From a virus: a stretch of DNA of 64,000 bases. How positions within the stretch are numbered: position 1 is the stretch's first letter; every line of letters begins with the position of its first letter. This document shows, piece after piece, positions 3,988-46,656 of the stretch. Under the pieces are notes generated by a model that searched no databases, was not told the origin of the DNA, and was given only the letters and a program-made list of their open reading frames with translations. The translations under genes were made by a program, and so were the position numbers. The stretch covers positions 172,431 to 236,430 of IMG/VR virus record IMGVR_UViG_3300045125_000168; one strand, written 5' to 3'.

Positions 3988-4515
3988 CTAAATCTTGATG
4001 AGAGGCCAACTCTGATCGCGGGGATTGACTAAGAGAGGAGTCTCAGGCCATTCGATACCAAGCGCAGGGTCATCCCACCGGAGACCGTCTTCGGCACTTT
4101 TTTCATAAGGGTAATCGACTTTGTACTGAACGATCGCCGTTTCAGACAGAACTAGAAAGCCGTGGGCCAAACCTTTGGGGACATAAAGACTCCAGTGGTT
4201 GTCCTCATTAAGATGAAACCCAGCCCATTTCAGATAGCTCGGGGAGTCAGGTCGAAGGTCCACAATCACGTCATAGATGGAACCCGCAACACACCGCACG
4301 AGTTTCGCCTGAGCCGATCCACCTTTTTGAAAGTGCAAGCCTCGCAAGGTGCCTTTCATGCTTTTGGACTGATTGTCTTGAATCCATCTCTCGTGGATGC
4401 CTGCGGAGCGGAAGTCTGACAGATTGTACGGGACCAAAAAATGTCCTCGGTCATCCGAAAAAACATCAGGCTTAAAGATGCAGGCTTGATAGACAGAAGT
4501 TGTCAACTTTTCCAC
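3988..4515 (-). CDS. rfbC: dTDP-4-dehydrorhamnose 3,5-epimerase
   Basis: A 175-residue cupin of normal family length. It shows the epimerase motifs GTLRGLHFQ (catalytic His), a GSIYDVIVDLR strand, YVPKGLAHGF and an RWDDPALGIEWP tail. The enzyme epimerises C3 and C5 of dTDP-4-keto-6-deoxyglucose, the third step of dTDP-L-rhamnose synthesis. It is translationally coupled to rfbD (13-nt overlap, rfbD upstream). rfbA and rfbB are not in this window, so the pathway either draws on the host pool or the other genes lie elsewhere. It presumably supplies sugar for host-surface or virion glycosylation. Confidence 0.93.
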   Translation of the reverse strand: MEKLTTSVYQACIFKPDVFSDDRGHFLVPYNLSDFRSAGIHERWIQDNQSKSMKGTLRGLHFQKGGSAQAKLVRCVAGSIYDVIVDLRPDSPSYLKWAGFHLNEDNHWSLYVPKGLAHGFLVLSETAIVQYKVDYPYEKSAEDGLRWDDPALGIEWPETPLLVNPRDQSWPLIKI

Positions 4516-5396
4516 AAGCGACCCTTTTCTTGGAGTTCCTCTAAGTGTTCGACTAACCTAATCTTCCAATCGACGATATGCTGCGGAGCTAGGGCTTGTG
4601 CCTTGGTGGTGTCCAGGGCCGAGAAGGTCGGACGCAAGGCGCGGGCGCGGTGCTCATCACTACTTAAAAACGGCTTGACTTTCAGATCGATATTCACCAC
4701 GGCACTGAGATAGGACGCAATCACCTGAGCCTGATCGCAGCGCGAGGGCACCGTCGTCGCAGAACCCGAAACATGGATTAGACCCCGAAGCCGAGCGTCA
4801 CTGAGCGCCTGGACAATAAAGCCTGCGACATCCTGAGCGTGAGTTGGAAAGCCAAATTGATCGGATACCACGGGTATAGAGTTTGAGTTCTTTAAATTGC
4901 GGACAATCGCTTCCGGGAACGACGCCCGTGCTCGACCGTACACCCAACTGGTGCGCACCAAAAGAAAAGGTTTTAAACAGTGCCTGAGAAATAGCTCTTC
5001 CCCGAGTAATTTGGTCAGACCATAGACCTGAATCGGCCCCGCTTGGTCGTCCTCACGGTAAGGGATGTGGTGCTCTTTGCCACCAAAGATATAGTCCGTC
5101 GAGATATGCACCACGAGCTTACAGGCTTGAAGCTCCGAACAGACCTTGGCTACCCGTTCGGCAAGAGCCGCGTTGAGTAGGAAGGCTTGGTGCAAATGCT
5201 GCTCGGCCTGATCGACGTTGGTGTAGGCCGCAGCATTGATGACCACTTCAGGGTTCACCGACCGCAGATAGAACTCCAGGGCCTCTAGGTTCGAGAGGTC
5301 ACACTCCTGTCTCGTGGGGGCTAAGACAGGGTAGCCGTGCAAAAGTCGCCTAAGCTCCGTGCCGATCAGCCCTGAGCCACCCAGAATCACGATCAT
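4503..5396 (-). CDS. rfbD: dTDP-4-dehydrorhamnose reductase
   Basis: A 297-residue extended short-chain dehydrogenase of normal length. The N-terminal nucleotide-binding glycine motif is GGSGLIG (residues 6-12), followed by NAAAYTNVDQAE, a STDYIFGG segment and the YGLTK active-site Tyr/Lys pair, all typical of RfbD. It reduces dTDP-4-keto-L-rhamnose with NADPH to dTDP-L-rhamnose. It is the first gene of the leftward operon. Its start faces the plus-strand Nudix gene across about 150 bp that hold a promoter and hairpin. Rhamnose genes in phages are known but uncommon. Confidence 0.93.
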   Translation of the reverse strand: MIVILGGSGLIGTELRRLLHGYPVLAPTRQECDLSNLEALEFYLRSVNPEVVINAAAYTNVDQAEQHLHQAFLLNAALAERVAKVCSELQACKLVVHISTDYIFGGKEHHIPYREDDQAGPIQVYGLTKLLGEELFLRHCLKPFLLVRTSWVYGRARASFPEAIVRNLKNSNSIPVVSDQFGFPTHAQDVAGFIVQALSDARLRGLIHVSGSATTVPSRCDQAQVIASYLSAVVNIDLKVKPFLSSDEHRARALRPTFSALDTTKAQALAPQHIVDWKIRLVEHLEELQEKGRLWKS

Positions 5397-13657: not shown

Positions 13658-15622
13658 TTAGGCGACTTTGATATACGTTACACGGATCACGTCACCAGAA
13701 GCTAGTTCTTCTGGTTGCCCAAGTGCAACGCTACCTGCGAAAGTCAAGCGGGTGATTCCACCGACCAAGGACACGGAATAGTCAGACCCTGCGTGCAAGG
13801 CAAGACGATCTACGAAGGCACAGATGCTAAACTCGTGTGCTTCAAAGGCGAGGTCGATATAGCCTTGCGAGACTTCGGTTGAGGTGAGAGTAAAAACTTC
13901 TTTTTGGTAGTTGTCTGCTAAGTAAGACTTGACTGCGCTGACGCTTGGAGCTTGATCCGTTTCCAGACCGCTCATCGAGTCTACTACGGCAGCGTCTCTA
14001 GCTCTCTCGACCGTAAAATATTCGTTAGAGCCTTCAGCGATATCGCTGGTCGTGAGGATGACTGTTCCTGTGTAGCCGTTGACCGAATCAACCATATCCC
14101 CGTCGTTTAGGATCTGATAAGCCGAGCCATCCCAAATGTAGGATTTGCGGTTACCCTCGTAGTTATCATCGTCAAGGACGATTACCACGTCACCAATTTG
14201 GACCTGATTATCTTCGGTGCCGATAGTCAAGGCATCGCGAGCCGCGATATCAGCAACCACGATGACATCCGTGATCGAGATCGCGGGCAGTTGGTTGGAG
14301 GGAATCAGACCATTGGCGTCGAGGGTGGCAACACCGTTAGCAGCGGCCTTCTCGGATAAGCGGATACGTGCGTCTACACCATCAGCCAACTCATCCAAAG
14401 CGGTTTTAGCAGAAATCAAGGCACCGCTGTACAGCGCAGGTGTTTTTGGGATGTACTGTGCATCGGCCACGGTCGCACCGAGTTTGAGGCGCGTGCCGTT
14501 CAGGGTGTCGGAGCTTTCGGAACGAATGACGTTAGAAAGAATGTAGCCGCAGGAACCGGATTTGTTAAAGGCCGCGTAAGCAGCGCCCGTCCAAAAGGTT
14601 ACATCCGCCAACAAAAGAGCACCGCTGCTTGCGGTCGAGACGAGGCCCGCTACGTTTTCAAAACCGCAGGCAGACAAACTAACCGTTCCACCTGAATGAG
14701 TGATGGAGTGGATACGGGAGCAGTTCACGGCTCTAAAGATACCAGAAGAGATCGAAGATTGGCCGAAGCAGTAAACGTCGTTTAAAACGACTGCGGCACT
14801 GCCTACAGGCGAGCCTTCCATCACGATACCGTTGTTGCTACCGTTGCGAAAGTCATGCCAACGCTGATAAGAGCCTTGGAATTTGATCTTTCCGACAAAC
14901 ACGCAGTTATCGAAGTAGTGACGACCAGCCGATCCGTCGATGGTCATACAGACGTTGGCAGATCCACCAACGGCTTCGATAAAGATGTTGCGCATCTTAA
15001 CGCGGGTGGTCAAAGCACCGGAGATAGTGATCGAACCCACGATCTTGATTGGGATCGCATCGGTGCTGCCAACTTCGGTCATAAGAGTGATTTTGCCACC
15101 CTCTGCCGTGAGAGCACTTTTGCCGTTGGCAAGACGAGTCGCATTTGGATCAAACGTCAAGTTGACCGGGGTCGCGTTGTTGCCGTATTGCGGGGAATCC
15201 GATTGCTTGATGATAACCACAAAGTCGGAATTGGCGTTACCATACATATCCGACAAATAAGCGGCATCAATACCAGCCTGAATCGTTTTATAAGGACGAT
15301 ACAAGGAACCATCAGACGCACCGTGAAGTGTGTCGTCGTAATTTTGATCGACATAGACCACGCGAGTCATGGTCGAGAGGTCGATCAGGTTGGTGATCTC
15401 GTCGTCCACGTATTTTTTACGAGTTAGATCATCATCAGAAGACGGTGTGAATGCGGCTTTTGGAAGGATTTGAAAATCCAAACTGTCTGCCGAAGACAAC
15501 TTAAAAAGGCTAAGATCGCTCCCCTCCGAGTCTTTAGCTACAAGGCTTTGCTCATTGAGCAGGCGGATTTTATCGCCATCAATTGCCTCGTTAAGAACAA
15601 ACTTCTTTTTTAACTGAGTCAT
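13658..15622 (-). CDS. Tail fibre/spike with parallel beta-helix region
   Basis: 654 residues, uninterrupted. The N-terminus carries the common fibre segment DDDLTRKKYVDDEITN. Residues about 90-400 have pectate-lyase-like repeats of short strands (YVDQNYDDTLHGASDGSLYRPYK, then TIQAGIDAAY; later CMTIDGSAGRHYFDNCVF), which suggest a beta-helix. A linker typical of phage fibres follows (DVIVVADIAARDAL, then QIGDVVIVLDD). The last about 75 residues form a small knob (SDYSVSLVGGITRLTF, ASGDVIRVTYIKVA). It is predicted to bind the host surface. The C-terminal module resembles the end of the next upstream gene (15649-16113). Confidence 0.75.
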   Translation of the reverse strand: MTQLKKKFVLNEAIDGDKIRLLNEQSLVAKDSEGSDLSLFKLSSADSLDFQILPKAAFTPSSDDDLTRKKYVDDEITNLIDLSTMTRVVYVDQNYDDTLHGASDGSLYRPYKTIQAGIDAAYLSDMYGNANSDFVVIIKQSDSPQYGNNATPVNLTFDPNATRLANGKSALTAEGGKITLMTEVGSTDAIPIKIVGSITISGALTTRVKMRNIFIEAVGGSANVCMTIDGSAGRHYFDNCVFVGKIKFQGSYQRWHDFRNGSNNGIVMEGSPVGSAAVVLNDVYCFGQSSISSGIFRAVNCSRIHSITHSGGTVSLSACGFENVAGLVSTASSGALLLADVTFWTGAAYAAFNKSGSCGYILSNVIRSESSDTLNGTRLKLGATVADAQYIPKTPALYSGALISAKTALDELADGVDARIRLSEKAAANGVATLDANGLIPSNQLPAISITDVIVVADIAARDALTIGTEDNQVQIGDVVIVLDDDNYEGNRKSYIWDGSAYQILNDGDMVDSVNGYTGTVILTTSDIAEGSNEYFTVERARDAAVVDSMSGLETDQAPSVSAVKSYLADNYQKEVFTLTSTEVSQGYIDLAFEAHEFSICAFVDRLALHAGSDYSVSLVGGITRLTFAGSVALGQPEELASGDVIRVTYIKVA

Positions 15623-28271: not shown

Positions 28272-29434
28272 ATGGGCGGTTTTTTCAAACAGGTGATCGC
28301 TAAATATACTCTTGTGACCTCGGACTTCAAAACGGTCGAGAAAAAGTTTCTTGACCTCGGTGCTGAGAAAGCCAAGGTCAAAGACTATCTCGACCGTTTT
28401 AAGAAATTAAGGGACAGAAATAAGCTCAAAGATGACGAAAAGAACATCGACCTTTGGGGCTCTAAGCCTTTTCAAGAGTTTCAAGAAAGAATTGAAGAGT
28501 TAGAAAAGGCTAAAACCAGGACCGAAAAGAAAAAGGGCAAAGTTGATTTGAGAGAAAACATCCCAGGAGCAAAATTAATTACTGAGAACGAAGAGTGGAC
28601 GGTGTTTGAGATCACGACTAATGAAGCATCCCATAAATTAGGGCAAGGTACGGAGTGGTGTATCAAGCACGATAAAAGTGAACAATGGGATCACTATGAC
28701 AGAAGTAATACGATTTACTTTTTTATTTCAAAGACGAGAGACCAGAAAGACCCCTGGTCTAAACTAGCCCTTCTTATTGACCTTCAAGGAAAGAAAACCT
28801 ACTGGGACCGTCGTAATAAGGCTCATAAAAGGGTGCCAACAGACTTAAAATTACCGAGGTTTAAAGTTATAATTCCAAAGTTTAAGTGGAAGGCCGATAG
28901 TAGCGGAGATATTGATGTATCTGAGGAAGGTCTCACCTCTCTTGAGGGAGCCCCTCAGACGGTCGATAGGAATTTTAATTGCAGAGACAACAAACTCACC
29001 TCTCTTGAGGGAGCGCCTCAAACGGTTGGTAAGGATTTTTATTGCAGCAGCAACCGACTTACCTCTCTGGAAGGAGCGCCTCAAAAAGTTGGTGGTTTTT
29101 TTATATGCAATAGCAACCGACTCACCTCTCTTGAGGGATCGCCTCAAGAGGTTGGTGGGTGCTTTGATTGCAGTGACAACAAACTAACCTCTCTTGCGGG
29201 AGCGCCTCAAAAGGTTGATGGGTATTTTAGTTGCCGCGGCAACCAACTCATATCTCTTGAGGGAGCGCCAAGAGAGGTTGTTGCGAGTTTTGATTGCAGT
29301 AACAACCAACTCACCTCCCTTGAGGGAGCGCCTCAAACGGTTGGTGGGAATTTTTTTGCACCAGAAACGGAAAAAAATTCACTGAGGAAGAAGTCCGTGC
29401 GGTCAGCAAAGTCGGCGGCAAAGTCTATGTTTAG
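28272..29434 (+). CDS. Repeat protein with WCI domain and seven LRR-like repeats, frame interrupted
   Basis: It starts MGGFFKQVIAKYTLVTSD, the shared signature. A charged region follows, then a domain with WTVFEITTNEASHKLGQGTE and WCIKHDKSEQW. That domain occurs in phages in front of short repeats. Seven 21-residue repeats then follow (consensus LTSLEGAPQxVGGxFxCSxN), about 63 bp each. One T is missing in the T7 run near 29357; restored, the protein ends CTRNGKKFTEEEVRAVSKVG and stops at 29434 (about 388 residues). As read, the frame runs into the next gene. The repeats could bind a host target. Confidence 0.6.
28932..29363 (+). repeat. 63-bp tandem coding repeats (7 units)
   Basis: About seven units of 63 bp, each coding a 21-residue LRR-like repeat (LTSLEGAPQ core). 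Units differ at several codons, so this is an evolving coding array, not an assembly duplicate. Confidence 0.75.
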
Positions 29435-29921
29435 CCTCAGGATATGGCTTACTCAAGCGAGATCTTATTTTATCAATAGGTTCATCGATAAAACCCATGC
29501 TTTAACGTCTTCATCTCTTAAGCGTGGTCAGTTCCATGAACTCGACACGCGTATCCTTCACTGCCTTTTCGATTCGCTAGTAGACTACATTGAAAAAGAA
29601 CTCGCTTGGATGCATGTGATTTGCACAGAGGCAAACCCAAAGCGACGTGGTTTTGGTTGGCGTTCGCGTCACGAGGGACTTGCTCATTTGGACTGGGAAA
29701 GTGAGTTGATGGATGACCATGGCCAACCGACCAGTCAGGCTCTTTCAGCGAGAGAGATCAAGGCACTTTATTTGTGGTGGACGGAAGAAAGACCTAAGCG
29801 TCAAGACCCTTTCATGGTCAGTTCTATGGAAAGATTTTTCGCACTTGAGAGACAATTCACTAACGAAGATGGTGAAATGCTCATAAGGTTAATGAAAATA
29901 AGATCTAACCTTTGGACCTAA
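29427..29921 (+). CDS. Conserved phage protein ending in an LWWxxxRP...IRxxLWT pattern
   Basis: 164 residues from the ATG at 29427, which overlaps the corrected stop of the repeat gene by 8 nt. The C-terminal half reads ALYLWWTEERPKRQDPF, then NEDGEMLIRLMKIRSNLWT. I recall this arrangement (a W-W, R-P-x-R-x-D-P, then E-D-x-x-M-L-x-R-L-x-x-I-R-x-x-L-W-T) as a family common in large phages, with no known function. It is likely soluble and helical. It is part of the rightward operon. Confidence 0.6.
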   Translation: MFSLRIWLTQARSYFINRFIDKTHALTSSSLKRGQFHELDTRILHCLFDSLVDYIEKELAWMHVICTEANPKRRGFGWRSRHEGLAHLDWESELMDDHGQPTSQALSAREIKALYLWWTEERPKRQDPFMVSSMERFFALERQFTNEDGEMLIRLMKIRSNLWT

Positions 29922-30595: not shown

Positions 30596-32113
30596 ATGTC
30601 GGGTTTTTTGTCTACTGGTGCTCTCCTTGAAGATACAGGCGCTCTCGTTGCTTCAGAAACACCGATTGTTCTGACGCCTCAAAGTGCGACGATTCTGCAT
30701 CTATCAGGTGAGGGTATTGTAGGCACCGATCAGGTCTTGCGCCTACCCGATGCAACAAAACTACAGCCTGGGGTCCGTTACACGTTGCCAACCGTTCCGG
30801 TGTGGCGGCTGAGGTCCAAAACAATTCCTCTGAGAGTTTTGCCAAGATTGAGCCTGGGATGCAGGCGGAGTTTCGTCTACTCGATGGGGATACCTCAGCG
30901 GGACTTTGGGATGCCTCTATTTTCCCTAGCGTCAAGGTGGGAATTGAAGACCTTAACCTTTCTCTTCTCAAGGGTGGAACTTGGTCCTGGTCGGAGGGGA
31001 AACTTTCCATTACAGCAGATGCGTTTGTCCAGATTCCTGGACTTCCGCTTTCAGTGAACCGGATTGCTAAGTTTCCAGATGTTGCCGCGACAGAGTACAC
31101 GCTGCTCGGTGATGTTTCGGGCTCTCTGAACAATAAATATGTGACTATCAAACGACCCAGTGGGTCGGGATATTACTTCTGGTTCAACGTCAATGGCCTG
31201 GGGTCGGACCCTGGACCTTTTACCTCTTTATCTGGCGTAGAAGTTCCGCTTTCGACAAACGCCAACCTCATAACGGTGTTGACCTCTCTGAAAAGTGCGA
31301 TCGAGGGATCTCAAGCCAACGCCTACTTTACAGTGACGCAAAATCCTTCGACTCTGACGATTGAAAATAAAGAGGCTGGTAAGATTATTCTCCCGAAGTA
31401 TCTGCAAATTTCTCTTGTTCTTTTCTTAACAGTGGACAGGATAGCATCGCTCTCCCTAGTGAAGGTTATGCAGCGTACACTAAGATTAGAAGAAGTGAGA
31501 ACATCGCAGTTTCTGGAACGCCTTTGACCGTTGAGATCGTCTCATCGCCTGAGTTGCTGGATGCGAGTGATGCTGATTTATGGATACTGGCTCAAAACAT
31601 CGGATCGAACAGAGTCCTGGTTGGCAATTCTTTTCGGTTAGTGGATGGTCAATCAGACGAACTTTTTCCGCAGGTGCTGCGAAAGGGAGTATTTTAGGTT
31701 CTGTTCAATATAACGATGGAAAGGATTTACTGAGTGGTGATACTTCTTTAGTTTGGAATCCCATACAGAAGACGCTTCGTTTAGGTGACCTTCATGTTAC
31801 CAGTTTGACGCCTACCCTTACGCTACTTGATAACCAGTCTACTCCCGTACAGATCGCAACATTTGATCCGTCCGCTTACAAAAACCTAGTCTTAGAATAC
31901 TCTTTGATCCGCAACGGCAAGCCTCAGATGGGGCAACTTTTGATTGTTCATGACGGAGTTACTGCATCGCTTGCGGATAATTTCGTCGCGATCAATTCTG
32001 TGGGGATTGAGTTTCTAGCAGGTATCGAAGGTTCCTCTCTAGTGCTTGCCTACCAATCGACCTCTACAGGTCATGACGCTACTCTTCGTTACTCCATGCG
32101 CTACTGGTCTTAA
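30596..32113 (+). CDS. Fibre/collar-type virion protein, frame interrupted
   Basis: Several frames join (breaks near 30790, 31410 and 31660) to give about 505 residues. It starts MSGFLSTGALLEDTGALVAS. The middle has beta strands (YVTIKRPSGSGYYFWFNVNG). The last about 75 residues (NLVLEYSLIRNGKPQMGQLL to ATLRYSMRYWS) are the same C-terminal knob found on the five large fibres downstream (an EY-x-hydrophobic strand, a G-x-L-L strand, a D-x-F segment, a Y strand). It is therefore a related receptor-binding or accessory fibre. It has its own promoter. Confidence 0.6.
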
Positions 32114-32199
32114 AAAAGACCGCAAAAATCAGCAACTCCTAAGTCGCTTTTAGAACTGCGCTTCTAAAAACATTTACATTTTTTTTGGAGTTAAAACGC

Positions 32200-34427
32200 A
32201 TGAGTAAGAACGTCTTAAAACACAACGTACCCCTCCGCTTTGGCACCGCTTCCTCTGACCCAGCCCAGACAGAAAACGGCGTTATCTACTATAACACAAC
32301 AGACAACCTTTTCAAGGTTTATGAAAACTCCCAATGGGTGAAGCTCGCAAGCCGCACCTATGTTGACTCCGTGGCCGCAGGTTTCGACCCGAAAGAAAGC
32401 GTCGTCGCTTCTTCGACCGCTAACCTCGCAAGCCTTGCTTCCATCGGGTCCTCTTTGGACGGCGTTTCGCTTTCCAACGGTGACCGCGTTCTTTTGAAAG
32501 ACCAGTCCACTGCGTCTCAAAACGGTATCTACGTTTACACCAGTGGTTCCTTGGCTCGTTCTGTTGACTTCAACGATAGCACGGAAGTCAACGGTGGTGA
32601 GTATGTGTTCGTGAAGGGCGGTTCTCTTTGGGGTGCAACCGCTTGGGTTGTGACCAACGCTCCTGCCACCATCGGTGTTAGCGACATCGTTTTCACGCAG
32701 GTTGCTGGTGCAGGCAAGTCCTTGAACAGCGCCTACCTCACGGGCAACAGCATCTCCACTAGCGGTGGCAACAACGTCATCATCGCTGGTACGGAGAAAC
32801 TGCAAGTCACGGCAAGCAGCGGCGTGTCCATCACCAACGCTCTTACCGCAGGCGCTACGGTTTTGACCAGTGCTTCCGTTACCGGAGCTTTGAGCGTTGG
32901 CGCTGGTAAGTTGATCGTTGATAGCAACGGTAACCTCACCAAGATCAACAACGTCTCCTATAGCTTCCCTGCAACGCAAGCCTCTGGTTCCAACTACGTT
33001 CTCCGTAACGATGGCTCGGGCAACCTCACCTGGAACAGCCTGCGTCTCGATAACATGAACGACCTGCTCTTGACCAGCTTGTCTGATAAGCAAATCCTCC
33101 GTTATGACTCGGCTTCCTCTAAGTGGAAGAATGAGTCTGCTATTTCCTCGACCTCTGGCTCTGCTTCTGCGTCCAAAATCATCATGACCAACTCTAGCGG
33201 TCTGTTGGACACCTCCTTCCTGCAATACAACGTCAACCTCGGCAACAACATTCTTTCTGGTGTCGCAACCCCAGTGGCTTCTACTGACGGTGCGAACAAG
33301 GCTTACGTTGACGCCTTGACCCTCAACACTGTTTACGGTCAAGACCCCGATGGTAGCGGTGCAACCATCACCACCAACTCGACCGATGGTGACGTGATTA
33401 TCGCTGGTACGCAAAAGCTGCAAGTCACGGCTTCTGGCGGTTTGGACGTGACCAACTCCATGACCGTTGGTAGCAGCGCCTCGATCGCTCAGTCCTTGAG
33501 CGTGGCGGGTGCTAAATTTGTGGTTAGCTCCACGGGGACCTGACCAAGATCAACAACGTCTCCTACTCTTTCCCGTCCGCTCAAGCAAGCGGTGCTAACT
33601 ACGCTCTCGTGAACAACGGCAGCGGAACCTTGACCTGGAACACCTTGTCCCTGTCTGGGTTGAGCGACGTCGCCCTTGCAAGCCTTGCTGATAAGCAAAT
33701 CCTGCGTTATAGCTCCACTGCTGGTAAGTGGGTGAACGAAAGCCCGATCGGTTCTACCACTGGTATCGCCGATGCGAGCAAGATCATCATGACGGATGCC
33801 TCTGGCAAACTTGATAGCTCGTTCCTGCAATACAATGTCAACTTCGGTGGTAACATCCTTTCTGGTGTTGCAACCCCAGTTGCCTCTAACGATGCCGTCA
33901 ACAAAGCCTACCTTGATTCCATCGTGGCTAACGCTGTTGCTGGTGTAACTCTGCAAACCGTGTACGAGCAAGACACCAACGGTGGTGACGTTCTCATCAC
34001 CACGAACTCTGTGGACGGAAGCCTTGTCATCGCTGGTTCCGAAGCCCTGAAAGTTTCGGCTGCTGGTGGTTTCAAACTGGCTGATAGCTCCGACGCAACC
34101 AAGTTCGTCCAGTCTATCTACAAAGATAGCTTGGCTCTTTCCGTTGGCTCTAGCGTTCTTTCCGCTCTCACCTACCCTGCTGCATCCATCGGCGGGATGA
34201 TGGTTGAGTACCGTGTGAAAGAAGCTGCTTCGGGTCGCGTTCGCGTTGGTACACTCCTCGTAACCAGCACCAGTGCTGATGTCTCCGTTTCCGATACCTT
34301 CGTTGAAACTGCTGATTGCCGACTGTCGTGGTCCGGTGCCATCAACGCTGGAAACGTGGAATTGTCCTACACCAAGACATCTGACTCCGCAAGCATGAGC
34401 GTCGAAGTTAAGAAGTTCATGGCCTAA
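32200..34427 (+). CDS. Tail fibre 1 (no central insert), frame interrupted once
   Basis: The ATG at 32200 follows TTGGAG and gives MSKNVLKHNVPLRFG. It then has ENGVIYYNTTDNLFKVYENS, the common fibre segment DGVSLSNGDRVLLKDQSTAS, DFNDSTEVNGGEYVFVKGG, two long repeat modules (each with NNVSYSF...LTWN...LQYNVN...ILSGVATPVAS) and a C-terminal knob (MVEYRVKEAASGRVRVGTLL). A missing G in the GGGG near 33537 breaks it. The total is about 742 residues. It is the simplest of five paralogues. Host receptor binding is the expected role. A strong terminator follows. Confidence 0.8.
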
Positions 34428-34438
34428 TTTTTGATTTA

Positions 34439-34473
34439 GATAGCATAAGGGTTTCGGCCCTTATGCTATCTTT
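34439..34473 (+). terminator. Terminator after tail fibre 1
   Basis: A perfect 13-bp stem, GATAGCATAAGGG/CCCTTATGCTATC, with a 6-nt loop, then TTT. It is 11 nt after the stop. Confidence 0.85.
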
Positions 34474-34535
34474 CCGCCCCTCTTTTGCTCCTAGACCTCT
34501 TTATTAAAACAATAATCCCCTTAAGGAGTATAAAA

Positions 34536-37350
34536 GTGAGTGACATAAAACTTATTAAGCACGGTGTACCCGTGCGGTTCGGGAAGGCAGGCGAAGCCCC
34601 TCCTCTCCCGAAAATGGGATGATATACTACGACACCTCTGAAGAACTTTTCAAAGTTTATGAAAATAGTGGATGGCAGATCCTTTCCTCCCGCGACTATG
34701 CGGATTCCCGTGTTGCTGGTTTTGACATCAAAGAAAGCTGCGCAGCAGCGACGGTCGAAGGACTTACAGCCACCTATGCTAATGGCACCTCTGGCGTTGG
34801 CGCGACCCTCACGGGTGCTGGGGCGCTTCCCTCCATCGATGGTGTCAGCCTTGCTCTCAATGCTAGGGTTTTGGTCCGTGCGCAAGGTGATGCGGCTCAA
34901 AACGGTGTCTATAAAGTTACGGCTTTGAGCCCTTTTGTTCTCACTAGAGCCGTAGATTTTGATGATTCTACTGAAGTGAACGGTGGTGAGGTCGTTTTCA
35001 TCAAAGAAGGAACGACCTTCGGAAACTGTTCTTTTGTGTGCCTCAGTTCCTCCGTTACCTTCGGCACCACTGCCATCAGCTTCACGCAGATCAGTGGTAC
35101 CGCAAGAACCTTGCAACAATATTACGCCACAGGGAACCAGATCACGACTGGTGACTCCCGTGACGTTATCATCGAAGGCTCCGAAAAACTTGAAATCACT
35201 GCCTCTAACGGTATGGAGATTTCTGGTTCGTTGTCCGCAGGTGAGACGCTGCTTTCTAGCGCAAGCGTCACCAATGCTATGGACGCAGCCGCAGCAAAGT
35301 TCTCCATCAGCAATGCTGGTAACATCAAAAAGTTGAATAATGTTTCGGTCAGCTTCCCAACATCTGCTTCCCAAGAAAACTTTGCGCTCGTCAATGACGG
35401 TTCTGGCACACTCTCTTTCGGTAACCTAGCTGTTAGCAATCTGAATGATGTCGGCCTAGCTAGTCTAAGCAGTGGTGAATTTCTTGAATACGATGCTGCA
35501 ACTAATTCCTGGGTCAATGACAATCCTGCTACCACCGCTTCCGGCTCTACATCGGTTGACTATTTACGATTGCCACCTGGCATGAGTGAAGATCCCGCAA
35601 TTTATAATGGTTACGCATTCGGTCTGATAGGTGATGGCTTACTAGGAGGACAGCAGATTGGTGGTGTATCTGGTCCACTAACGCAAGCATTTTTTTTGGT
35701 TCAAACACCATACAACGCAAGTCCATTACCTACGGGAACTATCCAAGTTGAGCTTTATGCAACGTCCAGCCAAAATGGACAGCTATTACCCACAGGGTCT
35801 CCTCTTGCTGTTTCTAACACTTATGATGTGTCCCAAATTGTGCCTGGGTACGTGCGAAATGAAGCCTCTTTTACTTTTTCATCTCCCGCACTATTGTCTA
35901 GTGAAAACGTCTATGCATTGATGATTCGCAGTAACAACGTGGCACAGGAAAGTTGGCAAAGCCCTGGCGTTTTGCAAGATCATAACGACTTTTTATACAC
36001 GCCATACTTAGCTATTCAATACGATGGTATGAGTATGAGTCTAGTTACTATGCAAAGTAGGAACCTTTTTTTCAAGATTGTTTTGGGTGGCACTGTTTCT
36101 GACAGTCTTGTCACAACAGACACAAATGGAAAAATTGATAGTAGTTTTCTGCAATTTAGTGGCCTGAGTTTGGGTGGTCACGTCATCTCTGGCATTGCAA
36201 GCCCAAGCGTTTCGACTGACCTTGCGAACAAGGCTTATGTTGATAGCGTGAGCTTGCAGGCTCTTTATAATCAGGACACCGATGGTCTTGGTGCCATCAT
36301 CACGACCGATGCTTCGGACGGTGATCTTATCATCGAAGGAAGTGAGAAATTGCATATTACCGCTGATAGCGGTCTTGACCTCGCTCAGATCCTTTCGGTC
36401 TCCGGTTCCATGGTTGCTGGAAGCCTTGTTGCCGGAAACGGCAGCATGAGCGTCTCTGCTTCGGGAGACCTTGGGAAGATCAAGGGCGTGTCTTATGTCT
36501 TTCCCGCCAGTCAAGCCACGGGTAGCAACTATACCCTGGTGAATGACGGTTCTGGGAACCTTAGCTGGGGTCAGCTAAAAGTTTCCGAAATGAACGACGC
36601 CCTTGTTTCCACGGCTTCCAACCAAGAGATCATTCAATGGAATGGCTCTAACTGGGTGAACGTCAGCGCCGTGACCTCTGGTAGTTCTAGCCGTATGTTC
36701 ATGACAACACCGAACGGTCGTCTCGACACGGTGGCATTGCAGCATAATCTCGATTTCGGGGTAAATGTTTTATCTAACATTCTTGCCCCAGTTGCCAGTA
36801 CCGATGCTGTTCCTAAATATGTTGCTGACGATAAAGCTGCGGACTCTTCTTCCGGTACGGGTTCGGTCACTCTACAATTATCTTACGGTCAAGATGTAGA
36901 TGGTAGTGATGTTCTTATCACAACTAACTCCGTAGATGGAATCCTTGAAATTGCAGGTTCTGAGGCTTTCCTCGTCAGTGCTGGAAAAGGATTCTTGCTC
37001 GCCGATAACGCCGATGCTTCTAAGTTTTCTAAGGTGATTTACAAGCATGAACTCGCCCTTTCGGCAAATCAAAGCAACGTCGCTTTAGCCGATGTGACTT
37101 TCGATTCCACAGTTCATCAGGGATGTTTGATCGAATATCGTATCAAAGATGATACCTCGGGTGCCTCTCGTATCGGTCTTCTTCTTGTTTCGACAGATGG
37201 AACGAACACGACGATCTCCGATTCCTTTGCAGAAACGTCTCCTCTTGGTGTTTCCTGGTCTGTTGGCCTTGCAGATGGAGATGTCGAGGTTCGTTATACA
37301 ACGAACTCTACCTCCAAAAGATGTCTGCAAAAATAAAATATTTTGCTTAG
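34536..37350 (+). CDS. Tail fibre 2 with jellyroll-like insert, frame interrupted
   Basis: GTG at 34536 (AAGGAG upstream) gives VSDIKLIKHGVPVRFG. One base is missing near 34605, and one A near 37316, without which the end KMSAKIKYFA is lost. It shares with its paralogues the ENGMIYYDT segment, DGVSLALNARVLV, the repeat modules and the knob. At about 35545-36120 it carries its own roughly 190-residue beta-rich insert (AFFLVQTPYNASPLPTG, IQVELYATSSQNG, NVYALMIRSNN) that fibre 1 lacks and that differs from the inserts of fibres 3-5. About 938 residues. Confidence 0.8.
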
Positions 37351-37358
37351 TGTCTGTG

Positions 37359-37384
37359 GGGTTCCCCTCAAGGGGAACCCTTTT
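37359..37384 (+). terminator. Terminator after tail fibre 2
   Basis: GGGTTCCCC/GGGGAACCC stem with a TCAA loop, then TTTT. It starts 9 nt after the corrected stop. Confidence 0.8.
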
Positions 37385-37388
37385 AAAA

Positions 37389-37449
37389 GAAACTATAGAT
37401 ACCTTTCATACGATCATTTCAGTTAAAAACCCGATGAAAGGATTGCGAT
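37389..37449 (+). promoter_or_regulatory. Conserved leader upstream of tail fibre 3
   Basis: About 60 bp nearly identical to 40352-40412 and partly to 43385-43438. Core: GATACCTTTCATACGAT, then ATTTCAGTTAAAAACC and GATGAAAGGATTGCGAT just before the ATG. It probably holds a promoter plus a ribosome site (GAAAGGA). Confidence 0.55.
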
Positions 37450-40309
37450 ATGACCGATATTTTATTACTTAAGCACGATGTTCCCCTGCGTTTTGTTCAG
37501 TCTAGTGCGGCACCAGCATCACCAGAAAACGGGATGATCTATTACGATACGACCCTGAACCTCTTTAGGGTCTATGAAAACGGTCAATGGCAAGCCCTTT
37601 CGTCAAGGGACTATGCCAAAAATTCAGTCGCCAGTTTTGATGTCAAAGAAAGCTGCGAAGTTGCAACCATCGCAAGCATCACTGCGACTTACGATAACGG
37701 GTCTGCTGGGGTCGGTGCGACCCTAACAGGAGCAGGGGCTCTCGGCTCGATCGACGGTGTGAGCCTTTCCGTGGGCGACCGAGTTTTGGTGCGTTCCCAG
37801 GCTAATGCTGCGGAAAACGGTATCTACAAATTGACGGCAGCAAGCCCTTTTGTACTGACACGAGCCGTAGACTTTGATGACTCCATCAAAGTGAATGGTG
37901 GAGAGTTTGTCTTCGTTAAGAATGGCACAAATTACGGTAATTGTGCTTTTGTATGTATCAATTCCTCTGTGACCTTCGGTTCCACGGCCATCAACTTTAC
38001 ACAGATCAGCGGTACAGCAGCGACCCTGCAACAATATTATGCGACCGGAAACCAGATTAACACGAGTTCTGGACGTGACGTTATTATCCAAGGTTCTGAA
38101 AACTCGAAATCACGGCTTCTGATGGCATGGAAATTTCTGGGTCTTTATCTGCGGGTCAGACCGTTTTGTCTAGTGCTAGTGTGACCAACGCTATGGACGC
38201 AGCAGGTGCTAAATTCGAGATCAATGACGCTGGTAACATCAGAAAGCTAAATAACGTACCCGTCAGCTTCCCGATCTCTGCATCTCAAGCCAACTATGCT
38301 CTTGCGAACGATGGTTCGGGGACATTGAGCTTTAGCAATCTTTCTGTTGCCAACCTTAATGATGTTGACGTTAGTGGTGCAACATCAAATTCGATGCTCC
38401 GGTATGACTCGCTTTCTTCCAAATTTGTGATGAGCGATGCAATTCTCGCTGGTGGGATGGGTGCTCCAACAAATTCTTTGCTGCTAAACGGTCTCGAATC
38501 ATCGTTTGCGACTTCGAGTACGTTAGAAAATTACCCATACATGGTTTCCGGCGAAAATATAGCCCAAGGGATCTCGGGATATTATTCTGTCGGACATGCT
38601 ACAGGAGCGCGGTTTGAGGTAACATCATCAACTTCGATTTCAAGTATTGATCTGTGGTTGCATACTTTAGATCAAGGCCCTGGTCAATTTCGCATCGCTA
38701 TCTTTAATTTTAATCCTGTAAATAGAACAGTAGGTAGTGAAATTGCTACGACTGCTGTTTTTGGTCAAAGCACTATTTACTTGCCTTGGCCACAGTATAC
38801 TTATGATATCAAAGGGAACAGCAGCACTCCTTGGCCTGTTATTAACTTTTCTTTTACAACTCAACCTGTGTTGTCTCCAGGTTACTATGTTTTTGGTATT
38901 ATCATCGTTACTCAGCCTAACGCACCTATCGCTCTTGCAGGTATTTCAACAGGGTCTTTGATTGGTGAGACCTGGGAATCTGGTTTAGATGCCTCTAGCA
39001 ACGGTCTTGGTTCAGGGTATGTTGCGGCACGAATCAATCAAAGCGTGGCTGACACTTCGACTGTGAATGTCCTGATGAGGACTAATGTTGCTGGAAAGAT
39101 CGACAGCAGTTTTCTGCGAAACGTCAACCTCGGTGGCAACATTCTTTCGGGAGTGGCTAGTCCCTCTGTGTCTAGCGACCTAGCAAATAAGGCATACGTT
39201 GATAGCGTGAGCTTGCAGGCTCTTTATACTCAAGATGTTGACGGGCTTGGAGCAATCATCACCACCGATGCTTCGGACGGTGATCTTATCATCGCAGGTA
39301 GTGAGAAATTGCACATCACTTCCGATAGTGGGCTTGATTTATCGGAAATCCTTTCGGTGTCCGGCTCTATGGTTGCAGGAAGCCTGGTTGCCGGGAACGG
39401 TAGTATGAGCGTCTCTGCTTCGGGAGACCTTGGTAAAATCCAAGGTATTTCATACTCCTTCCCTGCAAGCCAAGCCCCTGGCAGCAACTATGCCTTGGTT
39501 AATGATGGCTCAGGGAACCTTAGCTGGGGTCAGCTAAAGTTTCTGAAATGAGCGATGCGCTCGTCTCCACGGCCTCCAACCAAGAGATCATCCAGTGGAA
39601 CGGTTCTAACTGGGTGAACGTCAGTGCGGTGACCTCTGGAAGCTCCAGCCGTATGCTGATGACCGATAGCAGCGGTCGTTTGGATACCTCGAACTTGCAA
39701 TACAACGTCGATTTTGGGGCGAATGTTTTATCTAGCATTCTCGCTCCAGTTGCCAGTACCGATGCTGTTCCTAAATATGTTGCTGACCAAAAAGCTGCGG
39801 ACTCATCTTCCGGTACAGGATCAGTCACCCTGCAATCATCATATAATCAAGATGTAGATGGTAGTGATGTTCTCATCACAACTAACTCCGTAGATGGAAT
39901 CCTTGAAATTGCAGGTTCGGAAGCACTCAAGATTAGTTCATCACAAGGCTTCTGCTTGCAGATAGTTCTGACACCACCAAATTTGTAAAAACTATCTATA
40001 AACATAGTCTTTCTCTTTCGGCAAGTCAGACCAACACGGCGTTGCCTGATCTTACTTTTTGACCCTTCGGTATATCAAGGTTGCTTAATCGAGTACCGCA
40101 TCAAGGACGACGATTCTGGTGCATCAAGACTCGGTACGCTCCTGGTTTCCTCCAACGGGACTTATACTGCGGCTTCTGACTCGTTCGCTGAAACATCGGA
40201 TCTCGGGGTGTCGTGGTCTGTTGCGCTCAATAGCGGGAATGTAGAAGTCCGTTACACAACGGATTCTACAACCAAGAAGATGTCCGCTCAAATTAAGTAT
40301 TTCGCCTAG
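37450..40309 (+). CDS. Tail fibre 3 with distinct insert, frame interrupted
   Basis: Starts MTDILLLKHDVPLRF. Breaks lie near 38100, 39535, 39955 and 40060. The full protein is about 953 residues. It has the same N-terminus (ENGMIYYDTTLNLFRVYENG), repeat modules and C-terminal knob (IEYRIKDDDSGASRLGTLLV, ending MSAQIKYFA) as its paralogues. The insert at about 38450-39070 is beta-rich and unlike that of fibre 2 (SISSIDLWLHTLDQGPGQFR, PGYYVFGIIIVTQPN). The leader is shared with fibre 4. Confidence 0.78.
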
Positions 40310-40322
40310 AGGTATCTATAAA

Positions 40323-40345
40323 CAGGGGCTTTTTTGAAGCCCCTG
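40323..40345 (+). terminator. Terminator hairpin after tail fibre 3
   Basis: 9-bp stem CAGGGGCTT/AAGCCCCTG with a 5-nt loop, 14 nt after the stop. The T run is in the loop, not after the stem, so it may be weak or Rho-assisted. Confidence 0.6.
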
Positions 40346-40351
40346 CACAAA

Positions 40352-40412
40352 GAAACTATTGATACCTTTCATACGATAATTTCAGTTAAAAACCCGATGA
40401 AAGGATTGCGAT
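40352..40412 (+). promoter_or_regulatory. Conserved leader upstream of tail fibre 4
   Basis: Nearly the same about 60 bp as at 37389-37449, differing at about two positions. Contains GATACCTTTCATACGAT and GAAAGGA before the ATG. Confidence 0.55.
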
Positions 40413-43373
40413 ATGACCGATTTTTTATTACTTAAGCACGATGTTCCCCTGCGTTTCGGCACATATAGCGAGGCACCACAGTCGCCTCAAAACGGGATGA
40501 TCTATTATGATACGACCCTAAACCTTTTCAGGGTCTATGAAAACGGTCAATGGCAAGCCCTTTCTTCAAGGGACTATGCAAAAAATTCGATCGCAAGTTT
40601 CGATGTCAAAGAAAGCTGCGAAGCTGCAACCACTACCAACCTTTCTGCGACCTACGCCAACGGCACCTCAGGTGTCGGTGCGACCCTAACGGGCGCGGGG
40701 GCTCTTCCTTCCCTCGATGGGGTGAACTTATCAGTTGGAAAAAGAGTTTTGCTTCTTGGGCAAACGGCAGCGAAAGAGAATGGTGTCTACACCGTCACTG
40801 CTCTCAACCCTTTTGTTTTAACCAGGGCCGTAGACTTCGACGAATCCGAAGAAGTGAATGGCGGTGAGTTCGTTTTTGTTAAAAACGGAACGAACTACGG
40901 AAATTGTGCATTCGTTTGTACAAACTCTGGGCCAGCGACCATCGGGACAACAGCGATTGTCTTTACTCAGATATCAGGTAATGCAAGAACACTTCAGCAG
41001 TATTATGCGACGGGCAACCAGATTGATACCGCTTCAGGAAGAAATGTTATCATTGCTGGAACAGAAAAATTAGAAGTCACCAGTTCTGGAGGTGTGGAAA
41101 TCACCGGAGCGTTGTCAGCGGGCGCAACAATTCTATCGACAGCATCTGTTCCTGAAGTGATGAGTGTGGCGAGCGGCAAGTTGGCAGTCAACTTGAATGG
41201 TGACATTACAAAATTAAATAATGTTGCAATTACTTTCCCATCTTCAGCCTCGATGGCAAACTATGCACTCACCAACAATGGTTCGGGTAGTCTGCGTTTC
41301 AGTAATTTATCCGTTCAAAACATGAATGATGTAACACTAACATCATTATCGAATGGCGATTATCTTCAATATACAACTAATGGAAATTGGTTAAATAAAT
41401 TTGCTCTTGAAACCGGGAACCGAAATGTTGTCGTAGCCACATCGTCCTCAATACCAATCGGTGTTAATAGTGCTTGGGCTGGTGACAACGCGATACTTGA
41501 CAATATTAACAACGCCAACTTTGTTCAATGTCAATCCATCTCGAACGCCTCTTGGTTATCTTGAATCGATTGATTATTGGATACAAAGACTCGGCAATTT
41601 TACGTCTTCTGGGACTATTCATGCGTGTATCATGGAATATCTAGGTGGTGGATCTAGTGTTTTAACCAACTTTGTTCCACCAAGCCAACTTTTGACCCCA
41701 CCCCCAAAATAGAAAATGCACTAGCTGTCAGTGCTCCTTTTGATGTTACAACTATCCCATCAGGATATTCAAGTAACCCTTTCGAGGTATAGATTTTATT
41801 TTACAGGTGCCAATCAAATCCAGTTAAATCCTGCTAAGACTTATCTTATCTGGCTTATAAAGTCCACAGGACTTGAATATGTCGCGGATCTATATAATGG
41901 AAATACATTTTCCGTTCACTACACATTGCTTTCCGACAATCCATACGCAAATGGGAAAATGATTACTTTCGCTTTTCAGAGACAGTATGACTATACGATT
42001 TCGAGTGCAATCTGGTTTGATCCCGCTCGCATAGGGGCGGGGACGACCACTTATCCGAATTATGATATTAAAATGCAAGTCAATACACTGTCGGCTACTA
42101 AGAACTCCGTAATGTATTCAGGTGTCTTCAAAACTAATGCCGCGGGTCTTTTAGATAATTTCTTCCTCGAATCAAATCTCAATTTGAAGAACAATGTTAT
42201 TTCTGGAATTTCCAATCCATCGGTCTCAACAGATCTTGCTAATAAAGCCTATGTTGATGCAGCAGTTACTCTTCAATCCCTTTACAACCAAGATCCTGAT
42301 GGTTCCGGTGCGACTATCACGACAACTACCACAGATGGTGCGCTCATTATCGGAGGAACGGAAAGGTTACAGGTCACCGCGTCCAGTGGTGTTTCTGTCA
42401 GCCAAATTCTTTTGGTATCTAGCTCAATGACGACAGGAACCTTGACCGTTGGCAACGGTGGTTTGGTCGTGTCCTCTGCGGGAACACTTACAAATATAAA
42501 AGGTGTTTCGTACAACTTCCCAGCAACCGATGCTGCTAGTGCCAATTTAGTTCTTTTCAATGATGAAGCTCGGGAAATTTAAGTTGGAGCGATCCTCAGC
42601 TTGCAAAGTCTGCTGTGATGACGAGCTTATCTAATGGTGACGTACTCGTTTACAACGGGACGAGCACTAAATTTGTGAATAAAGCACCAGTTACCAGCGG
42701 AACAGCAAGAACCCCTCTGAGGTCTGACGCCTTGGGTTTTGTTTCTTCCTCGGCACTCCAGTATAACGTCAATTTTGGAACCAACATTCTCTCCAGCCTC
42801 AGTTCGGCTGTTCAAAGTAGTGACGTGGTAACGAAGGCTCAGGTTGATGGACAAACGATCGATCCTAGTGCAGGTATCGGTTCGCTGACGCTGAAAGTTC
42901 TATACGACCAAGACACTGAGTTCACACCGAATGTCGTTATAACTACATCCTCTAGTATGGGTGCGCTTGAAATCGCAGGAAGCGAAGACTTTAAAGTCTC
43001 GTCGAATCAAGGGTTTTTACTAGCCTCCAGCGTTTCTGACGACAAGTTCACGAAATCTATATACAAACATGGCCTGACGTTATCTGCAAATCAAACCGAT
43101 ACCAGCGCTTTCAGCCCTTACCTTCAGTGCTTCATCCTATAAGGGCTGCGTCATAGAGTACCGTATTAAGGACACAGATGGCGTTTCCAGAGTCGGGACC
43201 ATTCTGGTGTCAGCGGATGGTAGTACAGACGTTGACCTGTCTGATAGCTTTGTTGAGACATCACCTCTTGGTCTCACTTGGGATGCTGTAGTGTCGGGGA
43301 CAAACGTAGAAATTCATTATACAACCAATTCTCGGCAAAAACCATGAGCGCGGTCATCAAGTATTTCATGTGA
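40413..43373 (+). CDS. Tail fibre 4 with distinct insert, frame interrupted
   Basis: Starts MTDFLLLKHDVPLRFGTYSE. Breaks lie near 41560, 41715, 42570, 43130 and 43335. The corrected length is about 986 residues. It keeps the shared N-terminus, modules (DIDGVNL-type loop, NNVAITFPSSASMANY) and knob (ending MSAVIKYFM). The insert (about 41420-42110) is again different (IDYWIQRLGNFTSSGTIHAC, SVHYTLLSDNPYANGKMITF). The leader repeat is shared with fibre 3; fibre 5 has a partial copy. Confidence 0.78.
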
Positions 43374-43384
43374 AGGGATTGATG

Positions 43385-43438
43385 GCTACTATTGGATACC
43401 TTTCATATTACACTAAAATGCTGAAAGGATTTGCATAT
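43385..43438 (+). promoter_or_regulatory. Diverged copy of the fibre leader, upstream of tail fibre 5
   Basis: Keeps TGGATACCTTTCATA and CTGAAAGGATTTGCATAT but is otherwise diverged from the copies at 37389 and 40352. It lies immediately upstream of the ATG at 43439. Confidence 0.5.
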
Positions 43439-46400
43439 ATGGCCAGCAAAAAATTATTAAAGCACGGTGTTCCGGTTCGCTTTGGCACTTATGACGCGCC
43501 ACCGCCTAACCCTGAAAATGGGATGATCTATTACGATACATCGTTAGGTTTTTTCAAAGTTTATGAGAATGGGTCATGGCAGTCCCTTTCTTCCAGGAAT
43601 TATGCAAAGTCGATCTTTGCAGGTTTTGATATTAAAGGAACATGCAAGGTTGCCTCGGTTGAAAATATAGATTTAGCAGGTGGAAGTCTTACGTTTAGTC
43701 GTATCTACACAACGCAAAATGGTGGCGGAAGTAACGCGGCTGCTGGTATCGGTTTTAATCGATACGCTTTTTCTGTGCCCTCTGGGCAGACATATTCTAT
43801 TGGTAAATTCAGTGTTTGGATGGCTAAAGTTGACAACCCTGGCCAACCTGATGCCTTTTTGAGAATATATTCTCAATCATCTGGTGGCAGTCTTCTAGGG
43901 ACATCGGCCACAGTTGCAGCTAGTACAATTCCTCTAAACACTCAGCAGTGGTCGTTTATTGATTTTATCTTTCTCAACACCAGTAGTTCTTACATCTGGG
44001 ACGTACTACTTCAGTGTTCAAGACTTTTCTGATCCAAATAATGGAATACCTTACTACGGTGTTCAGTTCTTCTGGAATCCGCCTACGGATTGGAATGCAG
44101 GGCCAAACTATAAAATATGGGGTGCGCAGCCCCCATCAACCATTGACGGATACAATCTATCAAATGGTGATCGAATCCTTTTGAAGGATCAAACTAACGC
44201 CGCGCAAAATGGCATATATGTGTACTCCGCTCAAACTCTGACTCGCTCCGCTGATTTCTCTGATGGTGATATGGTCAATGGTGGTGAATATGTTTTGGTT
44301 TCAAATGGTAGCAACACATTTTAGCAGCGTTTTTATATGTACAAATTCATCTCAAGCTACTATAGGCACAACTCCGATCACATTCACACAGTATACGAGC
44401 CCTGCTCGGTCCCTACAGCAACACTATTCTGTTGGTGGCCAAATTACGACAAGTGGTGGTAGAGATGTAATAGTTGCAGGTACTGAAAAGCTACAGATCG
44501 AAGCCGCAGGTGGTTTGCAGATTACAAACTTCTTATCCGCAGGTCAAACTCTTGTCCCAACGGCGAGTGTCTCTGGAAGTGCAAACGTCGGTGCTGGAAA
44601 ACTTGTTATTGGTTCCGATGGTAATATTTCTAAAATTCGTAACGTAACCTCTATCTTCCCAACTTCTGCCTCGCAAGCAAATTACGCGCTGACAAACAAT
44701 GGTGCAGGAACTCTGAGTTTTGCCAACCTCGCTGCTTTCCAATCTAAACGATGTGACGCTCACGTCTACATCGAGCGGTGACTTTTTACGATATGATAAT
44801 GCAACAGCTAAATGGGCGAATAGGATTCCATTGAAAAAATGCTACCGTTTCTCTGCAAAACGTAGTTAATTACTATAACACAAACGGTACATCAGGTTCT
44901 AACTCATATTATGCTATCAACTCACCATATTCCCCGAACATCTATTCATCAATTGCAGCGCGAATCTGGTATGTCGAAGGATACCTTAAAAGCGTGAAGG
45001 TAACAGTTCGGGTGAATAGTCCTAACTATGATACTGCCGTTTACGCTTATATTACGGAATGGACCGGAACATCGACTAGCGAGCCACCAACGGGGGCTCT
45101 TGCAAAAGTATCAACTACCTGTCCCCATCTACAGACAATGTGGTTGTTGGTTCCGACTATATTAAGACGTTTAATTTTCCAGAAACATATCTCAGTAACA
45201 CGAAAGAATATCTCATAGTCCTCGTCAGTAATTACAACCCCAGTGCATATCAAATCAAGCTCAACGCTCTCGGGGACTTGTATGGCGGTCAAGGTATGTG
45301 GCTTAAAAAGTCAGTCTGGACTAAAGACATCGCAGGTTATCCAGTGATGCAATTAGTCGTGAACTCCGAGCCTTCTGCGGCCATCGATGTAATCCAGACC
45401 ACCGCCTCTGGTTTTTTAGATAAATCGTTTCTCTACAACGTAAATCTCGGAAATAACATTATATCAGGGATTTCATCTACGGCAGTTTCCACGGACCTTG
45501 CGAACAAGGCTTATGTCGATTCTGTCAAATTTCAAGATCTTTACAATCAGGACCCCGATGGCTCTAATGTAACTATTACGACGAATAGTATAGACGGTGC
45601 GCTTGTTATTGAAGGAACTGAGAAACTGCAAGTCACTGCGTCTAGCGGTGTTTATGTTAGTAACGCACTTACGGCTGGATCGTCTTTGAGTGCTGGAAGT
45701 CTGGTGGCAGGCAACGCAAGCATGAGCGTGTCCGCAGCGGGTAATCTCACCAAGATATCTGGGTGTCTTACAGCTTGCCCTCAAGTCAAGCTGCAAGCGA
45801 TAACTACCTAATGGTAAACGATGGCTCTGGGAATCTCAGTTGGGCTAACTTCAATTTCGACCAGATGAGTGACACGATTGTCACTGATGTTTCCGACTTC
45901 CAAGTCCTTCGTTTTGACGGAACTAACTTTGTCAACGTCAACACGGTTCTGAGTGGTGGCGCGAGTCAAATCCTCAGAACTGATGCGTCGGGTCATCTTG
46001 CTAGTGAAGCCTTGCAGTACCCATTGACTTTAGTGGGCAACACCCTGACGGGCGTTGGGATGGCTGTGGGCAGCAGCGACATGGTGTCCAGGGCGTATGC
46101 TGATGCAAACGCGATTGATACAGGGATCAACACAATCAACCTCAACTCGGCTTATCACTACGGTCCAGTTCTGACTACCAATTCCACCGATGGTTTCCTG
46201 GAGATTACGGGTTCGGAATCCCTTGAAAGTGTCTGCGAGCTTCTGCCTCTAGCAGATAGCAGCGACGACACCAAGTTTTCCAAGGTCTTCTACAAACACG
46301 GGATTACCCCTCTCGGCCAATATGACCTCGGCTATTCTGAACGACCTGACGTTCTCAAGCGCCCTCTATCAGGGCCGTGTCATCGAGTATCGCATGAAGG

Positions 46401-46604
46401 ACAATTCTCTGGGCGACTCTCGTGTGGGAACCTTGATGCTTTCTACCGATGGTACAAGCACCTCGATTTCTGAGCACGTTTGCTGAGACCGCACCGATGG
46501 GCGTGACCTGGGCCGCAACGATGGCTGAAAATGACGTCCAGGTGCTCTATACGACCAACTCGTCGTCCAAAATCCTGAGTGCTAAAATCAAGCTTTTTGC
46601 CTAA
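43439..46604 (+). CDS. Tail fibre 5 with two inserts, frame interrupted many times
   Basis: Starts MASKKLLKHGVPVRFGTYDA. At least eight breaks lie between 44015 and 46470, the densest of the five fibres. It keeps ENGMIYYDTSLGFFKVYENG, DGYNLSNGDRILLKDQTNAA, the modules and the terminal knob (ending SAKIKLFA). There are two inserts: about 43660-44110 (GGGSNAAAGIGFNRYAFSVP) and about 44850-45390 (YLKSVKVTVRVNSPNYD, YDTAVYAYITEWTGTS), both jellyroll-like. The corrected length is about 1055 residues. It ends at a strong terminator. Confidence 0.75.
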
Positions 46605-46622: not shown

Positions 46623-46656
46623 AGAGGTGACCTACAACGGTAGGCACCTCTTTTTT
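46623..46656 (+). terminator. Terminator after tail fibre 5
   Basis: AGAGGTG/CACCTCT stem continuing into CCTAC/GTAGG with one bulged A, loop AACG, then T6. Strong. Confidence 0.85.

Follow-up and report, generated by a model that had tools for sequence, protein, structure and literature searches.

The linear IMG/VR virus record IMGVR_UViG_3300045125_000168 (236,430 bp, possibly incomplete) carries a tandem array of five paralogous genes that probably encode tail fibres. The window analyzed here is the 64,000-nucleotide stretch comprising positions 172431–236430 of this record, and coordinates are given in window numbering unless marked as record positions. The gene copies were located by self-comparison and six-frame translation. 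Because most copies change frame, each gene was stitched together along a codon-usage path, and the five resulting proteins were then aligned. The copies lie head to tail on one strand between positions 32200 and 46604, each with its own start and with a successive spacing of 2.3–3.0 kb. The genes, their inserts and the insertion point, hereafter referred to as the socket, are as follows (aa, amino acids).

Fibre 1, 32200..34427, plus strand: lacks an insert and comprises anchor, N-terminal domain, repeat modules and knob; with one frame change near 33535, its length is about 742 aa.
Empty socket of fibre 1 (KWKNESAISSTSGSASASKIIMT), 33115..33190 (approximate), plus strand: located by the five-fibre alignment and by flank matches to contigs L064–L066.
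Fibre 2, 34536..37350, plus strand: the same scaffold with an insert; about 940 aa, encoded in a single 925-codon frame apart from the two ends.
Insert of fibre 2, 35531..36124, plus strand: beta-sandwich-like, with a homologue in contig L066; DNA identity to fibre 3 declines from about 35450 onwards and has recovered completely by about 36230.
Fibre 3, 37450..40309, plus strand: its 5' end resembles that of fibre 4 (86% protein identity in the anchor), and its 3' half that of fibre 2 (91% identity in module 2).
Insert of fibre 3, 38451..39059, plus strand: homologous to insert 5a.
Fibre 4, 40413..43380, plus strand: 3' end approximate owing to a frame change.
Insert of fibre 4, 41409..42123, plus strand: same family by profile.
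Fibre 5, 43433..46604, plus strand: carries two inserts.
Insert 5a of fibre 5, 43661..44135, plus strand: placed within an N-terminal domain loop; matches the NCBIfam choice-of-anchor R family weakly.
Insert 5b of fibre 5, 44838..45379, plus strand: at the common socket.

Each fibre is built from an anchor (about 50 aa), an N-terminal domain (about 130 aa), repeat modules (about 200 aa each) and a knob (about 100 aa). All five copies share the N-terminus KHxVPLRFG...ENGMIYYDT and the knob, and the repeat modules are recognized by the motifs KINNVSYSFP...NDGSGNLSW...LRYDxxxxKWxNES and GxLDSSFLQYNVNLGGNxLSGVATPVASxDxANKAYVD. The anchor is a conserved N-terminal attachment region, with 52–86% identity among the five fibres. 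Protein identity between fibre pairs is 35–91% outside the insert, and 14–23% across the insert of fibres 2–5. An assembly artefact, in which a single gene was duplicated, is ruled out because the copies are too different, their scaffold protein segments differing by 9–65%. The translations and the alignment thus agree with the initial annotation, made from the sequence alone, which had described five tandem paralogues with a shared N-terminus, module repeats and C-terminal knob, and a first fibre devoid of any insert.

The same annotation had placed all inserts at about the same position. The alignment locates an insert of about 180–240 aa in fibres 2, 3, 4 and 5 (5b) at one identical point, between KWxNES and GxLDSSFLQ of module 1, whereas the other insert of fibre 5 (5a) lies off this site, between TCKVASVEN and IDGYNLSNGDR of the N-terminal domain, where fibres 2–4 have a loop of only 20 aa. 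No insert is found at the equivalent point of module 2 in any of the five copies. The set is also larger than the five genes first described. A sixth, intact paralogue without an insert (944 codons in one frame) is encoded outside the window on the minus strand (record 130385–133216), next to a broken and more distant fibre-like gene with a different anchor, socket-like repeats and a related knob. A Pfam search with the whole fibre frames found no family and no enzyme domain in the array, and the repeat modules and knob gave a single weak match among 50,697 phage records. The conservation of the knob alignment is too low for it to serve as a search query.

The flanks of the socket recur in four other IMG/VR contigs, L064, L065 (two sites), L066 and L069, and all five sites are filled. 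A broad search with the right flank drew mostly generic NKxYVD motifs; the tighter search that replaced it returned only these four contigs. The sockets of L064, L066 and L069 hold beta-sandwich-like inserts, and those of L065 hold an FG-GAP propeller (FG-GAP_2, E = 1.7e-73, seven matched stretches) and a laminin-G domain (Laminin_G_3, E = 4.2e-13). In the available stretches, L065 and L066 share with the record only fibre parts and the anchor and knob of the gene at 13658–15622 (minus strand), and no core genes. This gene is tailspike-like with a probable beta-helix start (GSLYRPYKTIQAGIDAA) and matches minor-tail families; in both contigs, the fibres with sockets have this anchor and knob. 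Another contig, L067, has other genes in common with the record (primase, ligase-like and others) and contains repeat modules with collagen-like stretches, and no filled socket was seen in it. The search of genome contigs gave one weak match, in a Roizmanbacteria bin. No close relatives of the phage were found in IMG/VR by means of the head-tail connector.

A comparison of fibres 2 and 3 reveals a sharp discontinuity at the socket. Their DNA identity is about 70–74% before the insert, 26–50% within it and 79–93% after it. At the protein level, identity amounts to 91% in module 2 and 69% in module 1, and the inserts are at background and do not align (z = -0.7). Insert 2 matches the insert of L066 with z = 15.9 in an alignment that passes through the socket (E = 6e-21), and scores z = -0.7 to 2.3 against its sister inserts. 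The proposal that the inserts form a cassette set is therefore supported by the drop in identity between fibres 2 and 3, by the L066 homologue of insert 2 and by the other folds in the L065 sockets; on these comparisons the inserts appear to behave as exchangeable cassettes. Fibre 3 is itself a mosaic, with a leader and 5' end similar to those of fibre 4 and a 3' half similar to that of fibre 2. The informative sites divide between fibre 4 and fibre 2 as 31:15 in the anchor and N-terminal domain, which precede the socket, and as 21:138 after the socket (Fisher p = 3e-12, for sites that are not strictly independent). The change of partner lies before the socket and not at it, because module 1 already leans to fibre 2 (8:29).

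The inserts had been described as mutually unrelated, which does not hold. Inserts 3 and 5a are homologous despite their different sites (z = 9.2 and 8.2 against shuffles). Leave-one-out insert profiles, scored against 2000 shuffled decoys, recovered inserts 2, 3, 4 and 5a above all decoys (15.6–24.2 bits, with a decoy maximum of 8.6–11.3). The same profiles placed the L066 and L069 inserts above all decoys and that of L064 only marginally, and rejected the propeller and laminin-G controls. The profiles show kinship and no fine structure, as their training alignments consist of very divergent sequences. Judged by these profiles, inserts 2, 3, 4 and 5a are one very divergent, beta-sandwich-like family. 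Insert 5b reaches pairwise z values of 3.2–3.6 to the L066 insert, insert 4 and the L069 insert. Insert 5a matches the choice-of-anchor R family (NCBIfam NF041539) over about 100 aa (E = 4.9e-5), with 23.3 bits and thus below the curated cut-off of 30; no match to this family was found for the remaining inserts. Searches with inserts 2, 3 and 5a by tblastn against the 50,697 phage records, and with insert 3 in IMG/VR, gave no match.

The array is located directly upstream of the tape measure gene, in the tail module, and the record encodes a gp6-like baseplate wedge. The N-terminal domain matches annotated tail fibres in several other phages, and is also present in PDB entry 9efk (orf22). Taken together with the alignments, the array is probably a receptor-binding-type tail fibre family with one exchangeable slot. 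We infer a tail location, trimeric fibres, recombination as the route of exchange, glycan binding and the presence of several fibres per virion. In the proposed mechanism, duplication in a jumbo myovirus would have given rise to a tandem tail-fibre family with a common scaffold of baseplate anchor, N-terminal domain, repeat modules and knob. The loop at the end of repeat module 1 would act as a socket that takes up an extra domain without disturbing the fibre; it is empty in fibre 1 and the sixth paralogue, and holds a probably mostly beta domain of about 180–240 aa in fibres 2–5. These domains would be replaced by homologous recombination in the conserved flanks, both between paralogues and with other phages. 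The inserts would most likely recognize polysaccharides or glycoproteins on the host surface, with a different specificity for each insert, and the array may thereby widen or shift the host range.

Several observations weigh against this interpretation. The family profile failed to recover insert 5b (-6.5 bits), a result to which its internal frame changes may contribute. The structure predicted for insert 3 alone (mean predicted local distance difference test score, pLDDT, of 40) and that for insert 2 with seven rows (mean pLDDT of 49, core strands about 70–84) are mostly beta and of low confidence, and no fold is assigned to either insert because both models are too weak. Fold searches with the predicted models returned nothing at E ≤ 0.001; carbohydrate-binding modules were among the top matches, none at E ≤ 0.001, and provide a hint only. 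The contig carries frame errors and may be incomplete. Finally, the N-terminal domain matches PHROG head-decoration families and, weakly, the solved capsid decoration protein 9nx3 (E = 0.0015). Because this domain also occurs in head-decoration proteins, the genes could encode head fibres or capsid decorations, whose inserts would be display domains adhering to surfaces such as mucus or biofilm and not receptor-specific binders. We consider this unlikely, since the tape measure gene directly follows the array, several phages have this domain in proteins annotated as tail fibres, and the L065 and L066 fibres share their anchor and knob with a record gene that matches minor-tail families. No match to the terminase families PF17289 and PF03237 was found in the record.

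It is similarly improbable that the inserts are old homologues of one domain whose divergence took place in situ once the genes had been duplicated, driven by strong diversifying selection and without exchange. The membership of inserts 2, 3, 4 and 5a in a single divergent family agrees with such a history, but fibres 2 and 3 retain their high identity in modules 1 and 2 while their inserts cannot be aligned, and insert 2 strongly matches the insert of another phage. For in-place divergence, the rate would have to be extreme and its boundaries sharp, or the flanks alone would have to have undergone conversion, and the same socket holds different folds in L065. A still less probable explanation is that the five copies are decaying pseudogenes that serve as a sequence store for one functional fibre, the intact sixth paralogue. 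It draws on the codon-usage path over the five fibre genes, which contains about 20 frame changes. However, the essential tape measure gene just downstream is broken more often (18 frame changes in 3.8 kb), the two fibre 3 breaks whose exact position is given by comparison with fibre 2 both lie in A-runs that are one base short, and in the fibre genes neither codon usage nor protein motifs are interrupted at the breaks. Sequencing errors that increase towards the contig end are thus the most likely cause of the frame breaks, because the tape measure gene is broken worse than the fibres and the placed breaks lie in A-runs; decay of the array is less likely. Four minus-strand genes have 0, 0, 0 and 1 frame changes on the codon-usage path, a comparison that shows only that the record contains intact genes, as three of the four were training genes chosen for being open. 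Between 52000 and 64000 of the window, the reading frames shorten and are interrupted more often as the contig end is approached, which fits a lower sequence accuracy in that region.

Modular receptor-binding proteins are of a known kind, to which a tail fibre family with one exchangeable slot adds a variant. The jumbo myovirus phiKp24 of Klebsiella also has many receptor-binding proteins and fibre genes; its broad host range has been attributed to them, and its fibres form a branched assembly (PMC9700779). The proteins of phiKp24 vary by depolymerase beta-helix domains, whereas the near-copies described here vary by a domain in an internal loop. In the evolved Dit proteins of skunaviruses and Oenococcus phages, a beta-sandwich of the carbohydrate-binding type is present or absent within a tail protein depending on the phage (PMC10688798, PMC8540738), and in skunaviruses the inserted carbohydrate-binding domain promotes adsorption (PMC10688798). 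There the scaffold is the distal tail protein, and no tandem array of near-copies was found described in PMC10688798 and PMC8540738. The tail fibres of extracellular contractile injection systems (eCIS) combine conserved anchors with varied binding domains, have duplicated fibre genes in some operons and have been inferred to undergo domain exchange, but belong to injection systems and not to phages (PMC12923769). The combination of tandem near-copies, empty and filled versions of one socket, and other folds at this socket in other phages was not found described in the open-licence papers searched, and appears to be new. If the proposed mechanism is correct, the array would constitute a natural experiment on the widening of binding range, in which stalk and tip are the same, one slot varies and the empty copies are built-in controls. 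It would provide domain borders for expression, reveal an insertion point that tolerates at least three folds, and render the question of which fibre part sets the host range directly testable.

Putative expression signals accompany the fibre genes.

Terminator-like hairpin after fibre 1, 34438..34471, plus strand: -23.6 kcal/mol.
Terminator-like hairpin after fibre 2, 37358..37381, plus strand: -19.5 kcal/mol.
Terminator-like hairpin after fibre 3, 40323..40345, plus strand: -17 kcal/mol.
Terminator-like hairpin after fibre 5, 46623..46651, plus strand: -18.8 kcal/mol with flanks, followed by a T run.
Leader of fibre 3, 37402..37442, plus strand: CCTTTCAT...TGAAAGGAT hairpin covering the Shine-Dalgarno sequence.
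Leader of fibre 4, 40365..40405, plus strand: nearly identical to the leader of fibre 3.
Leader of fibre 5, 43399..43429, plus strand: arms kept, loop different.

Termination at the hairpins after fibres 1, 2, 3 and 5 is likely, and short of certain because only some of them have a T-run. In the whole record, the leader CCTTTCAT...TGAAAGGAT is found only before fibres 3, 4 and 5. A regulatory role of its hairpin over the ribosome-binding site is put forward as a hypothesis, given that the folding energies are moderate relative to shuffles (z = -1.1, -2.9 and -0.3). The initial annotation had also suggested that the phage could choose among its fibres. A choice by DNA inversion or by a diversity-generating retroelement finds no support, as neither a serine recombinase/resolvase (PF00239) nor a reverse transcriptase (PF00078) was matched in the possibly incomplete record. 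A choice by regulation is possible, since strong hairpins follow fibres 1, 2, 3 and 5 and the leader hairpin precedes fibres 3, 4 and 5. A T4-type late promoter (TATAAATA) was considered and dropped, with only 4 exact copies in the record, and Rfam gave no match in the array. Tentatively, and as a possibility that we do not favour, the loop of the repeat module could be a portable socket of otherwise unrelated phages that accepts beta-sandwich, propeller and laminin-G domains through recombination in the flanks. The present family would then comprise four loaded and two empty copies in separate transcription units, three of them with a common hairpin at the ribosome-binding site.

One neighbouring gene has a knob related to those of the array.

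Upstream neighbour of fibre 1, 30596..32113, plus strand: broken frames; C-terminal knob related to the fibre knobs.

Further upstream, a gene on the plus strand (28272–29921) encodes repeated, leucine-rich-like TSLEGAPQxVGGxFxCxxNxL units, and the record contains similar units elsewhere (about 57274). Inspection by eye pointed to genes that resemble those for a GmhA-like phosphoheptose isomerase (record 128614–129059, minus strand), an HldE-type kinase (record 112824–113876, minus strand), which matches phrog_8133, and an RmlD-like sugar reductase (window 4503–5396, minus strand); from these sequence resemblances, the phage may make its own nucleotide sugars. Lipoprotein-type signal peptides were noted in three genes (record 31682–32887 and 150178–151389, plus strand, and 129770–130381, minus strand), one of which has collagen-like tail-fibre matches and another resembles an SCP/CAP-domain protein; L067 also has a lipoprotein-like gene. 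A 690-aa protein (record 146583–148652, minus strand) combines a GIY-YIG endonuclease region with many helix-turn-helix matches.

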